DNA of 47,289 bases. It comes from Stutzerimonas nosocomialis (GTDB lineage Bacteria > Pseudomonadota > Gammaproteobacteria > Pseudomonadales > Pseudomonadaceae). The notes under the pieces are model-generated. The model ran no database searches. It saw only the letters and a list, made by a program, of their open reading frames with translations, and was not told where the DNA came from. Positions within the stretch are counted from its first letter, which is position 1. Every line of letters begins with the position of its first letter. The stretch spans positions 1-47,289 of the forward strand of contig NZ_QLAE01000039.1 in assembly GCF_005876855.1 (NCBI RefSeq), given 5' to 3'. Positions 30,353-38,134 of the stretch are shown one piece after another. A program made the translations under genes and the position numbers.

Positions 30353-30434
30353 AAGGCTATTTTCGCAACGCCCAGGGCTTGGCTAGGCCTGCTGGTACGG
30401 CTCGATGAGGAGCCCATCCAACAGGAGAACAACA

Positions 30435-31820
30435 ATGACCCATCCCCTTGCCCGCCAAGCGGCCACGCTGGGCCTGCTGCTCGGGGCGGCAACCGCCTTC
30501 GCGGCGGACGCCCCGCCCACCAGCTATTCGCCCGTGGTGATCACCGAACCCTTCGACGTGATCATGAAGCGGATGTCCGAAGCCAAGCCCGGCATCATGG
30601 AAAAGCACCGGGCACTGCTCGAGCAGCGCTACGACCTGGCCGACAGGCCGGCCGAGGGCGTGACGATGAGCAAGGGCAAGCCGGTCCAGGGCGGCGTGCG
30701 GGTCCGGCTGCCGGCCGACACCAGCTGGGAACAGCTCGCCGCCCTGAGCCCCGACGAAATCCGTGAACGCAATCTGTTCCCGGCCGGTTTCCTGCCCCTG
30801 CCGCATCCCAACCACACCGAAGGCGGGATGGTCTTCCCGCAGTTTCAGATCGACGAGGTCAATCGCATCGAGCAGCGCGACCTGACCCGCTTCGACCTGG
30901 ACTTCGACCTGCCCGACCACCTGCTGCCGGAGTTTCCGGCGCCGATCTACCTGACCACCCGGCCGGACCTGGGCGACGTCTCCCAGGGCAAGCTGGTCAA
31001 CCTGCGCAACTACTTCGAGCTGTTCAACGGCATCCTCAATCCCAAACAGCTCGAAGGCCTCCGACTGCTGGTCACGCCCTTCACCCAGCAGCAGTTCAAC
31101 CCCACCGACGACCGCCGCAGCGAACATCCCCATACCGGCGTCGCCTGCCTGGACTGCCATGCCAACGGCCATACCAATGCCGCGACGCACCTGGCCGGCG
31201 ACGTCAGGCCCCAGGCCTTTCGTCACCGCCTCGACACGCCGTCGCTGCGGGGCGTGAACATCCAGCAGATCTTCGGCTCGCAGCGCGCCCTCAAGACCGT
31301 GGAGGACTTCACCGAGTTCGAGCAGCGTGGCGCCTATTTCGACGGCGATCCGGTGATGGCGGCGAAAAAGGGCATCAACGTGCTCGAGCGCGGCAGCCAG
31401 GTGCATTTCATGGGCGAATTCCAGGCCATGCTCGACTTCCCGCCCGCCCCCAAGCTGAACCTCGAAGGGCGGCTGGACCCGGCCCGGGCGACCGAGCAGG
31501 AGCTGCGTGGCGAGCAGGTGTTCCACGGCAAGGGCGCCTGCGCCGGCTGCCATGTGCCGCCTTATTACACCGATCACCTGATGCATAACCTCAAGACCGA
31601 GCGCTTCTTCAAGCCGCAGGAGATCAACGGACGCATGGCGATAGGCGACGGGCCGATCAAGACCTTTACGCTGCGGGGCATCAAGGATTCGCCGCCCTAC
31701 CTGCACGATGACCGGCTGCTCACCCTCGAAGACACCGTGGAGTTCTTCAACCTGGTGCTGCAGCGCCGCCTCGACGAGCAGGAGAAGGCCGACCTGGTGG
31801 CCTTCCTGCGGACCCTCTGA
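30435..31820 (+). CDS. Periplasmic di-heme cytochrome c (cytochrome c peroxidase/MauG-like superfamily)
   Basis: Exported c-type cytochrome of 461 residues: signal peptide ending TAFA/ADAPP near residue 24, then two heme sites, CLDCH (238-242) and CAGCH (369-373). The C-terminal half (KTFTLRGIKDSPPYLHDDR, LTLEDTVEFFNLV) is the pattern of di-heme peroxidases, where it carries TL(R)(N/G) and HD segments near the active heme. The N-terminal 200 residues are unlike classical peroxidases. Annotation pipelines often call relatives cytochrome B6, which the CxxCH motifs do not support. Ribosome site AGGAG precedes ATG 30435. An ankyrin gene follows across a strong hairpin. Confidence 0.83.
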   Translation: MTHPLARQAATLGLLLGAATAFAADAPPTSYSPVVITEPFDVIMKRMSEAKPGIMEKHRALLEQRYDLADRPAEGVTMSKGKPVQGGVRVRLPADTSWEQLAALSPDEIRERNLFPAGFLPLPHPNHTEGGMVFPQFQIDEVNRIEQRDLTRFDLDFDLPDHLLPEFPAPIYLTTRPDLGDVSQGKLVNLRNYFELFNGILNPKQLEGLRLLVTPFTQQQFNPTDDRRSEHPHTGVACLDCHANGHTNAATHLAGDVRPQAFRHRLDTPSLRGVNIQQIFGSQRALKTVEDFTEFEQRGAYFDGDPVMAAKKGINVLERGSQVHFMGEFQAMLDFPPAPKLNLEGRLDPARATEQELRGEQVFHGKGACAGCHVPPYYTDHLMHNLKTERFFKPQEINGRMAIGDGPIKTFTLRGIKDSPPYLHDDRLLTLEDTVEFFNLVLQRRLDEQEKADLVAFLRTL

Positions 31821-35967: not shown

Positions 35968-35987
35968 GCCGGCCGCCTCAGGCCGGC
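35968..35987. terminator. Two-way hairpin between convergent MFS and oxidoreductase genes
   Basis: GCCGGCC (35968-35974) pairs with GGCCGGC (35981-35987). The loop contains the stop codon of the leftward gene (TCA at 35978-35980). The two genes are only ten bases apart, so this hairpin is the likely transcription end for at least one. Confidence 0.45.
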
Positions 35988-38134
35988 GGTTCGCTGACGC
36001 GCCTGCGGTTGATGCGTTCCGCCCAGCGGAGCAGGCGCTGGCGGCGCGGTGCGTGATCGCGCTTCCAGAGCGTCGCCAGGCGATGGTTGGCTTCGCCGAA
36101 GGTGGGGTAGATGTGCACCGTCGCCAGCAGCTTCTTCAGGCCGATCTTGTGCTTCATCGCCATGACGAATTCGGCGAGGGTCTCGCTGGCCTGCTCGCCG
36201 ACCACGGTGACGCCGAGGATGCGGTCCTTGCCCGGCACGGTGAGCACCTTCACGAACCCGTCCGGGGCTTCGTCGATCTGGGCGCGGTCGAGCGCGGCGA
36301 GGTCCAGACGGGTCACCTCGAACTCCACCTCCTGCTCCCGCGCCTCCTGCTCGCTGAGCCCCACCCTGGCGACCTGGGGCGAGGTGAAGGTTGCCCTGGG
36401 CGTGACCCGGTAGCTCACCTTCAACCGCCAGAACATGCCGAACAGGGCATTGAACACCGCATAGCGCGCCTGGCGCACCGCCATATGGGTGAACCGGTAG
36501 GGCCCGGCCACGTCGCCGATCGCATAGATGTTCGGCATGCGCGTGGCGAGGTACTCGTTGACCTCCAGGGTGCCGTCCTCGCCCGGCTCGAGGCTGAACT
36601 GTTCGAGCCCGAAACCATCGAGGTTGGCGCTGCGGCCCACCGCCACCAGCACCTCGTCGAAAGGCAGGCTCAGCTCGCGGCCATGGGGGTCCTGGCAGAC
36701 CATCCGGCGCTCGCCTTCGCCGATCTCGAAACGCTGGGTGACGTGCCCCAGGCGCAGGTCCACTCCGTCGGCGCGCAGCGCCTGGGCGAGCACCTCGCCC
36801 GCCTCCTCTTCCTCGCAGGCGAGCAGCCGTTCGCCGCGGTGGACCAGCGTCACCTGGCTGCCCAGGCGCTGGAACGCCTGGCCCAGTTCGCAGGCCACCG
36901 GCCCGCCACCGAGCACCAGCAGGCGCGCGGGCCGCTGGCGCAGCTGCCAGATCGAGTCGGAGGTCAGCGGCTCGACCTCGGCGAGCCCGGGGATGTCCGG
37001 TATCGTCGGTCGGCTGCCGGTGGCGAGGATCAGGCTGCGGGCGCTCAGCGTGCGGCCGTCCACCTCCACTTCCCAGGGCGATACGACCCGCGCCTCCCCG
37101 GCGATGACCTCGACGCCGAGCTGTTCGTAGCGCGCGGCCGAGGCCTGCGGCGCGACCTTCCCGACCGAGGCCCGCACCCCGTCCATCACCGCGCCGAAAT
37201 CCAGCTCGCCACGCGCCCGGGCAAACCCGAGACGCTCGCCGCACACCCTGTCGTGCGCCAGCCGGGCGAAGCGAACCAGCGCCTTGGACGGCACGCTGCC
37301 GGCGTTGAGGCTGTCCCCGCCCAGGGCGTTCCTTTCGATCAGCGCGACCCGGGCTTTCATCGACGCCGCCAGCTCGGCCGCCGCCAGCCCGCCGGCGCCA
37401 CCACCGATCACGATCAGGTTGCGCTCGAAGCGCCTGGGCTTGCGCCAGCCCTTGTAGGCCTTGCGTGCCTTGTAGACGCCGAGCAGCTTGTTGGCCAGCA
37501 GCGGAAACACCCCCAGCAGCACCAGGGTCGTGATCATGCTGGGCGACAGGATGCCCGACAGCGAGTCGATCCGGGCCAGCTCGCGCCCCGCCGCGACGTA
37601 GACCGCATTGCCCGGCAGCATCCCCGCCCAGGTCGTCCACCAGAAGGTCCAGAACTTCACCCGGGTCAGGCCCAGCGCCGGATTCAGCAGCACGAACGGG
37701 ATGACTGGCATCAGCCGCAGCGAGAACAGGTACAGCGGCCCGTCGCGGGTCAGGCCCCGGTCGATGCCGGCGATGTGCCGGCCGAAGCGTTTCTGGAACC
37801 AGTCGCGCATCATGAACCGGCTCATCAGCATCGCGATCGTGGCGCCGACGGTCGAGGCGAAGGACACCAGCAGCGTGCCGCCGATCAGGCCGAACAGCGC
37901 CCCGCCCAGCAGCGTCAGCACGACGGTGCCGGGAAACGAAAAGGCGGTCAGTGCCACATAGGCCAGGAAGAAAAGGGCACCCGCCCACCAGGGGTGGCCG
38001 CGCACCTCGGCACGCAGCGGCCCGTGCAGCCTCTTGATCGACTCCAGCGTCAGGTACTGGCCGAGATCGAAGAAAAAGAAGCTCGCCACGGCGGCGAGGA
38101 TCAGACCAATCACGACGAGCTTGCGTGCATTCAT
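35978..38134 (-). CDS. TVP38/TMEM64 membrane domain fused to a flavin disulfide-oxidoreductase domain lacking both redox cysteines
   Basis: Protein of 718 residues. Residues 1-220 are a TVP38/TMEM64 (SNARE-associated, DedA-like) membrane domain, with FSFPGTVVLTLLGGALFG and RLMPVIPFVLLNPALGL. Residues 238-718 are a class I pyridine-nucleotide oxidoreductase: FAD site IGGGAGG (243-249), NAD(P) site LVLGGGPVACELG, second FAD site IYAIGDVAG, and the dimer-domain His674 (VHIYPTFGEA). The redox loop, normally GGxCxNxGCxPSK, reads GGDSLNAGSVPSK, so both cysteines are serines (275 and 280, AGC codons). It cannot carry out normal disulfide exchange and may be a quinone or oxygen-type flavin reductase. 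The start ATG 38134 has AGGAA thirteen bases upstream. Confidence 0.9.
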   Translation of the reverse strand: MNARKLVVIGLILAAVASFFFFDLGQYLTLESIKRLHGPLRAEVRGHPWWAGALFFLAYVALTAFSFPGTVVLTLLGGALFGLIGGTLLVSFASTVGATIAMLMSRFMMRDWFQKRFGRHIAGIDRGLTRDGPLYLFSLRLMPVIPFVLLNPALGLTRVKFWTFWWTTWAGMLPGNAVYVAAGRELARIDSLSGILSPSMITTLVLLGVFPLLANKLLGVYKARKAYKGWRKPRRFERNLIVIGGGAGGLAAAELAASMKARVALIERNALGGDSLNAGSVPSKALVRFARLAHDRVCGERLGFARARGELDFGAVMDGVRASVGKVAPQASAARYEQLGVEVIAGEARVVSPWEVEVDGRTLSARSLILATGSRPTIPDIPGLAEVEPLTSDSIWQLRQRPARLLVLGGGPVACELGQAFQRLGSQVTLVHRGERLLACEEEEAGEVLAQALRADGVDLRLGHVTQRFEIGEGERRMVCQDPHGRELSLPFDEVLVAVGRSANLDGFGLEQFSLEPGEDGTLEVNEYLATRMPNIYAIGDVAGPYRFTHMAVRQARYAVFNALFGMFWRLKVSYRVTPRATFTSPQVARVGLSEQEAREQEVEFEVTRLDLAALDRAQIDEAPDGFVKVLTVPGKDRILGVTVVGEQASETLAEFVMAMKHKIGLKKLLATVHIYPTFGEANHRLATLWKRDHAPRRQRLLRWAERINRRRVSEPPA

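Follow-up and report, generated by a model that had tools for sequence, protein, structure and literature searches.

A clade of TVP38–flavoprotein disulfide reductase fusions without redox cysteines in Stutzerimonas

Introduction

What does a flavoprotein disulfide reductase (FDR) do once both cysteines of its redox motif are gone, and what becomes of the membrane domain to which it is fused? The question is raised by a gene of the window, i.e., the whole 47,289-nucleotide stretch of Stutzerimonas nosocomialis DNA analyzed here, that encodes a TVP38/VTT domain and a Cys-less FDR as a single protein of 718 aa (35978..38134, minus strand; assigned by ORF and Pfam). The first-pass annotation of this DNA had read the loss as a sign of a changed function, perhaps electron transfer from NAD(P)H to a membrane partner. 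Fusions of VTT and FDR domains are already known (PMC10127716; like the other papers cited, represented here by the sections available to us), and what is new is the Cys-less form, of which no description was found in the available parts of the open-licence PMC literature searched. What bacterial COG0398 (TVP38-type) proteins do, and why some are fused to a disulfide reductase, is an open question according to the same paper, and the locus bears on it.

Results

The reading frame starts with the ATG at 38134 and its stop codon ends at 35978 (minus strand). It is open throughout, and VTT_dom, Pyr_redox_2 and Pyr_redox_dim are each above the Pfam cut-off (79.5 bits vs. 33.9 for the VTT domain, PF09335), in line with the earlier statement that the protein is otherwise intact. 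The presence of the three domains in a single chain makes it a member of the TVP38-FDR fusion family, as do its full-length matches to both Cys-less and Cys-Cys relatives, and it has the two dinucleotide folds and the dimerization domain of an FDR. The membrane half comprises residues 1-225 (37460..38134, minus strand; VTT_dom at 67-184) and the FDR half residues 236-690 (36065..37429, minus strand; Pyr_redox_2 at 239-556 and Pyr_redox_dim at 578-684). A predicted structure of the monomer, based on a 21-row alignment, has a mean pLDDT of 76.7, with block means of 53-82 in the membrane half and values below 50 at residues 675-688. The solved structures listed as similar concern the FDR half alone; no VTT structure is among them, and they do not bear on the VTT fold. 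The further VTT proteins of the window genome (two above the cut-off and one below) are more distant.

The redox motif, GGDSLNAGSVPSK (residues 272-284; 37283..37321, minus strand), retains Lys284 and has Ser275 and Ser280 where the CXXXXC pair would be, as had been claimed. That is, the protein reads SXXXXS, its only cysteines are residues 298, 415, 440 and 480, and the loss of CXXXXC chemistry, including disulfide cycling through that pair, is certain. A sequencing error is not a plausible source of the change because both serine codons are AGC and the closest named relative, the separately sequenced Stutzerimonas azotifigens (89-90% identical), is likewise Ser-Ser with both codons AGC. The FAD dinucleotide fingerprint GGGAGG (residues 244-249; 37388..37405), the NAD(P) fingerprint GGGPVAC (residues 409-415; 36890..36910) and the C-terminal His674 are present, as the first-pass annotation had noted, and so are Glu681, which completes the His-Glu pair of the C-terminal HIYPTFGE (36092..36115), and Asp541 of the GD motif (36512..36514), all on the minus strand and identified by sequence and alignment.

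No NCBIfam model had its cut-off passed by the window protein among the best 25 of 53 matches, of which the top one was NF004991, an FAD-containing oxidoreductase (458.9 vs. 620). The scores were 251 vs. 465 bits for the transhydrogenase (STH) model NF003585, 230 vs. 479 for NAD(P)H-quinone dehydrogenase, 355.7 vs. 454.45 bits for MerA (TIGR02053), and 336.7 vs. 408.8 bits for dihydrolipoyl dehydrogenase (TIGR01350), an enzyme class whose CXXXXC is also absent here. Nor does the protein carry the STH motifs CXXXXT and YXXXXE, having SXXXXS and His674 instead.

One of the scans for relatives used short exact peptides of the window protein and favors close relatives. The S. azotifigens gene is identical with that of G047, a genome of the Stutzerimonas set. 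The fusion gene was found in 23 of 56 Stutzerimonas genomes, Cys-less in 21, Cys-Cys in 9 and in both forms in 7, and 74 of the 398 genomes of the family sample had a match. The order survey matched 214 of 390 genomes at E up to 1e-180, and all 14 order loci in which the motif was newly read (L184-L197) were Cys-Cys. Altogether, 132 loci gave 131 motif rows (L091, a fragment, gave none), 108 of them Cys-Cys and the other 23 made up of 22 Cys-less rows and one duplicate. Among the family matches with the motif read, i.e., all except a contig-end piece in G262, the only Cys-less copy outside Stutzerimonas was L115 (G190:C21:56951-59065). This copy, from another genus of the family, sits on the tree inside a subclade of Stutzerimonas copies, which suggests transfer. 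The tree was built from 122 of the 131 rows. The nine dropped were L061 (the gene of L032) and eight Cys-Cys rows, namely the truncated L113 and seven frames with the FDR half only. L113 (G343:C1:4901639-4902808) is a second Cys-Cys copy, cut to 392 aa (matching residues 1-384), in a genome that also has a full copy.

In this tree, both cysteines are present in 100 rows, neither in 22 and just one in none, and the 22 Cys-less rows, 21 proteins from Stutzerimonas and the one from another genus, form one clade with a single change (SH-aLRT 100), recovered again in a 63-row tree with the motif columns taken out. One loss of the cysteines is the simplest reading of the sampled set; several independent losses were considered and are not needed, the tree showing one change. 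The tree places the Cys-less clade as sister to all Cys-Cys copies of the family (support 89), but the alternative of grouping it with 11 rows (nine Stutzerimonas Cys-Cys copies plus L121 and L122 from other genera) was not rejected (AU p 0.426), and whether the duplication would fall before the family or near Stutzerimonas is uncertain. The window and S. azotifigens proteins (hereafter, the window pair) are sister to the remaining 20 members. The first-pass annotation had asked whether the Ser-Ser form is a clade. It is the Cys-less form that makes up the clade, with Ser-Ser, confined to the window pair, as its least altered end; the other 20 combine Ala or Thr with Ser, Gly or Asn (residue 275: 19 A, 2 S and 1 T; residue 280: 14 S, 7 G and 1 N).

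How far the loss extends beyond the cysteines was read from 19 tabulated positions in the 22 Cys-less and 100 Cys-Cys rows. Gly244, Gly246, Gly249, Glu267, Gly373 and Gly540 are retained in 22/22 Cys-less rows, and Cys275 and Cys280 in 0/22. Lys284 is Arg in 16 of the 22 and kept in six, Asp541 is Ser, Ala or Gly in 20 and retained only in the window pair, His674 is Gln or Leu in 11 and retained in 11, Gly411 (the second Gly of the NAD fingerprint) is Asp, Glu or Asn in nine, and Arg501 is lost in 12, whereas all five are invariant in the 100 Cys-Cys rows, bar one His674. We take Lys284 and Asp541 to be flavin contacts and His674 the acid-base residue, by comparison with glutathione reductase and lipoamide dehydrogenase. 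Position 414 is Ala in 22/22 Cys-less and Gly in 100/100 Cys-Cys rows; GxGxxA is an NADPH-type fingerprint. With fingerprint residues kept and catalytic residues lost, the picture is one of an eroding catalytic center beside dinucleotide binding that seems to be retained. At the sequence level, the clade as a whole has the marks of a pseudoenzyme, i.e., catalytic residues lost from a fold under purifying selection; the window pair makes a weaker case. Among the 19 positions, only the Cys pair and Gly414 set it apart from the Cys-Cys rows, and Lys284, Asp541, His674, Glu681, Gly409 and Gly411 are all in place. Of the sites conserved in the Cys-Cys consensus, 122 of 145 are unchanged in the FDR half of the window protein and 45 of 57 in its VTT half, leaving 23 and 12 departures, respectively.

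The same rows bear on whether the protein might act as a thiol, metal or mercuric reductase through other cysteines, given that the family scan matches MerA and lipoamide dehydrogenase models and that Cys415 is present in 22/22 and Cys480 in 21/22 Cys-less rows. However, none of the four cysteines of the window protein lies in the redox motif, and Cys415 is part of the NAD(P) fingerprint and equally kept in the Cys-Cys rows (94/100). MerA has a C-terminal Cys pair, named in the title of structure 4k8d, which is absent here, and the MerA score is below its cut-off. We regard such an activity as extremely unlikely.

Selection on the two halves was compared in the seven genomes that have both paralogues. 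The mean amino-acid difference of the FDR half is 0.267 in the Cys-less vs. 0.134 in the Cys-Cys copies, and that of the VTT half 0.128 vs. 0.155; the corresponding omega values, which stand without a likelihood-ratio test, are 0.088 vs. 0.062 (FDR) and 0.030 vs. 0.067 (VTT). Variable sites number 217/452 vs. 127/453 in the FDR half (p 6e-10) and 63/225 vs. 79/225 in the VTT half (p 0.13, alone not significant), by Fisher tests that take sites as independent, and the FDR/VTT ratio is greater for the Cys-less copy in 21/21 genome pairs. Over all pairs, its median is 1.71 for the 22 Cys-less and 0.91 for the 100 Cys-Cys rows, with 0.8% of the Cys-Cys pairs above the Cys-less median. The other large Cys-less subclade (12 members) has omega values of 0.040 (VTT) and 0.105 (FDR), and, as an extreme case, the window and S. 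azotifigens proteins differ at 4/225 VTT positions (omega 0.010) and 70/455 FDR positions (omega 0.082). Omegas of close pairs are noisy (VTT and FDR, Cys-less: 0.046 and 0.162 for L106/L108, 0.081 and 0.126 for L034/L040; Cys-Cys: 0.313 and 0.107 for L043/L046, 0.045 and 0.030 for L094/L100). An FDR omega of 0.08-0.16 across the Cys-less sets and pairs tried is clear purifying selection. As judged from these substitution patterns, purifying selection is shown to persist in the Cys-less clade and to be concentrated on the membrane half.

Sites conserved in the Cys-Cys rows and relaxed in the Cys-less ones make up 75/149 in the FDR half vs. 10/60 in the VTT half (p 5e-6), and sites re-fixed to a new residue in the Cys-less clade number seven in the VTT and four in the FDR half (re-fixed vs. 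relaxed, p 4e-4). Four of the seven fixed VTT changes (A70T, F148V, I150L, L152P, M154L, V167T and F204L), i.e., those at 148, 150, 152 and 154, bunch at PVIPFVLLNPALGL, which we take as the putative second re-entrant loop by analogy with the protein described in the available part of PMC7818093, the placement being ours and not that paper's.

A decaying copy or a sequence error could account for the faster evolution of the FDR half relative to the Cys-Cys copies. Yet the frame is open, both changes are shared with a separately sequenced species, no internal stop occurs in the 21 full-length Cys-less matches of the genus, omega ranges from 0.010 to 0.162 over all Cys-less sets and pairs compared, and the gene is kept over deep divergence. 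We find this explanation hardly credible and reject it. Cys-Cys copies do occur in the same genus (9/56 genomes), an arrangement that would have spoken against a new activity only together with decay of the Cys-less gene, of which there is none. With an intact protein, one Cys-less clade and purifying selection, the inference of a changed function was therefore the right one.

Whether the changed function is electron transfer is another matter. In a Cys-less oxidoreductase, NAD(P)H would reduce FAD and the flavin would hand its electrons directly to an acceptor in or close to the membrane (a quinone, O2, a metal or a second nucleotide), and the small departure of the window pair from the Cys-Cys rows at the 19 tabulated positions favors this, as do the precedents of E. 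coli SthA, the SXXXXT transhydrogenase of Streptomyces avermitilis and Irc15p (below), and the window genome's own STH, in whose motif, GGNSTHLGTIPSK, Ser and Thr occupy the two Cys positions. Against it, Asp541 is lost in the other 20 members, often together with Lys284, His674, Arg501 or Gly411; even when the window protein is compared with its closest relative, change in the FDR half greatly exceeds that in the membrane half; and the transhydrogenase and NAD(P)H-quinone dehydrogenase scores are below the cut-offs. The first-pass proposal of electron transfer to the membrane is thus unlikely as a clade-wide activity, with residues lost and constraint moved to the membrane half, while it is a possibility for the window pair because this pair keeps Lys284, Asp541, His674 and Gly411. 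Overall, we consider an oxidoreductase a serious but unlikely candidate.

The genomic neighborhood separates the two forms. In the 42 of 58 family Cys-Cys loci that have 5-kb flanks (frames called mechanically), an ArsS-type radical SAM cluster adjoins 39 and a TIGR04282/04283 glycosyltransferase cluster 33. NCBIfam identified two of the ArsS members, far above the cut-off; among the glycosyltransferases tried, two stand-alone TIGR04282 matches and one TIGR04283 match scored too low for their cut-offs, whereas a fused protein exceeded both. Because the Cys-Cys fusions mostly adjoin ArsS and glycosyltransferase genes, the data suggest that the parent fusion belongs to an arsenosugar pathway. 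Most of the Cys-Cys loci L174-L181, L114 and L116-L148 have this arrangement with ArsS and arsenosugar-type glycosyltransferase genes.

The Cys-less paralogue might continue an arsenosugar-linked role from another locus, given that 6 of the 14 Cys-less-only genomes have ArsS and that no fusion gene was found in the flanks of at most 5 kb around it. ArsS is above the cut-off in 17/56 genus genomes, i.e., in 9/9 with a Cys-Cys fusion, in those six, and in two with neither form. In the latter eight genomes (L198-L205), ArsS occurs together with glycosyltransferase-like matches and with no fusion gene in the flanks of at most 5 kb on either side, six carrying the Cys-less copy elsewhere and two none. 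However, the other 8 of the 14 Cys-less-only genomes, the window genome among them, have no ArsS above the cut-off, and 0/22 Cys-less loci have an ArsS or glycosyltransferase cluster nearby (the L033 flank being just 4.3 kb). From this distribution and the lack of adjacent loci it follows that the arsenosugar pathway and the Cys-less gene are not linked, and a continued role at another locus is very unlikely.

No conserved partner gene was found clade-wide for the Cys-less clade. A LigD-type gene lies within 5 kb of 7/8 members of the AALH subclade (one named by family search), an error-prone DNA polymerase near three other members (one named), a DAO/Rieske oxidoreductase near four (its cluster also by four Cys-Cys loci) and GrxB near three (its cluster also by one Cys-Cys locus); these are not read as functional links. 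Elsewhere in the window (30405-31820, plus strand) lies a gene for a protein of 471 aa that had no Pfam match at 1e-8; its CLDCH and CAGCH motifs suggest, by eye, the binding of c-type heme.

Discussion

We favor, with slightly better than even confidence, the hypothesis that the window gene is a neofunctionalized paralogue in which the membrane domain would do the work, with the FDR half kept as a scaffold or regulator that binds dinucleotides. Under this hypothesis, the window protein would belong to a Cys-less paralogous TVP38-FDR lineage, sampled almost only in Stutzerimonas, whose VTT domain may translocate or scramble a lipid or other amphiphile, like related DedA/VTT proteins, and may have been refitted to a different substrate. 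The FDR half would no longer do thiol-disulfide chemistry and would instead serve as an FAD/dinucleotide-binding dimerization scaffold or would cap the membrane domain as a regulator. Both the flavin and the NAD(P) site look intact in S. azotifigens and the window species, where the cap could still sense the NAD(P)H or flavin redox state. We take the VTT domain as the working part because catalytic residues beyond the cysteines are gone from most members, the membrane half is under the stronger selection, and the genus yielded no copy without the FDR half: with the window VTT half as the query (E up to 1e-15, 56 genus genomes), 0/30 matches lacked it, all 30 belonging to frames of 710-817 aa.

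Several observations weigh against this hypothesis. The purifying selection on the FDR half exceeds the needs of a mere spacer, and the key residues retained by the window pair leave room for an active flavin site there. Further, the departure of the window protein from the parent form is not concentrated in the FDR half, which means that the case rests on change within the clade, and re-fixed VTT sites are also expected from shared ancestry along a long stem. Finally, STH, Irc15p and Mtb LpdA are Cys-deficient FDR folds that are real oxidoreductases.

A more specific, speculative and rather doubtful possibility is that the VTT translocator or scramblase is gated by a captive flavoprotein that reads the FAD or NAD(P)H state without substrate turnover. 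If so, an enzyme would have been converted, within a single bacterial genus, into a regulator that couples a membrane transporter to redox state. What sets the lineage apart is that its two halves have been treated differently, the membrane half kept and apparently refitted and the disulfide chemistry gone, with the reductase fold present in every genus copy seen. The seven genomes with both versions thus provide a ready-made pair for studying VTT function and how a flavoprotein may act on a transporter without chemistry.

Known systems place the Cys-less fusion in context. Irc15p of Saccharomyces cerevisiae is a lipoamide dehydrogenase paralogue that lost both cysteines after duplication and kept FAD; it accepts electrons from NADH or NADPH and donates them to menadione and ferricyanide, not to disulfides (PMC6296175). 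The likeness lies in a Cys-less paralogue that shifted function after duplication; Irc15p differs in being microtubule-associated, in having no fused VTT domain and in its demonstrated flavin reduction by NAD(P)H. Mtb LpdA, an FDR relative without one Cys, the His and the Glu, has quinone reductase activity (PMC6296175). The window protein, in contrast, keeps the His and Glu and is without both Cys. Mtb LpdA is not known to have a fused VTT domain.

STH proteins (SthA/UdhA) are also FDR relatives without the CXXXXC pair. According to the available sections of PMC9460512, their motifs are CXXXXT, as in E. coli SthA, and YXXXXE, and there is one report of an SXXXXT transhydrogenase, in Streptomyces avermitilis. 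NADH can still reduce the C45A variant of SthA, which then loses 37% of its electrons to H2O2. They are soluble and have Thr at the second place and a C-terminal Tyr for His, whereas the window protein has Ser and His. The window genome's own STH (L003:1486-2880, G000:C5, outside the window) scores 743 vs. 465 bits with NF003585 and has Ser for the usual Cys, i.e., SXXXXT as in Streptomyces avermitilis.

On the membrane side, the eukaryotic VTT proteins TMEM41B and VMP1 are not known to carry a flavoprotein domain. They are phospholipid scramblases and most closely related to COG0398, for whose proteins a scramblase role has been suggested (PMC10127716). They share the VTT family with the window protein, in which scramblase activity is only putative. 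The closest systems are the fusions of COG0398 (TVP38-type) DedA with PF07992 and PF02852, the commonest COG0398 fusions (mBio 2023, PMC10127716), which have the same domains in one chain. The available sections of that paper make no mention of a Cys-less form, and it is by the lost redox cysteines and the re-fixed VTT residues that the window clade differs from the fusions described there.
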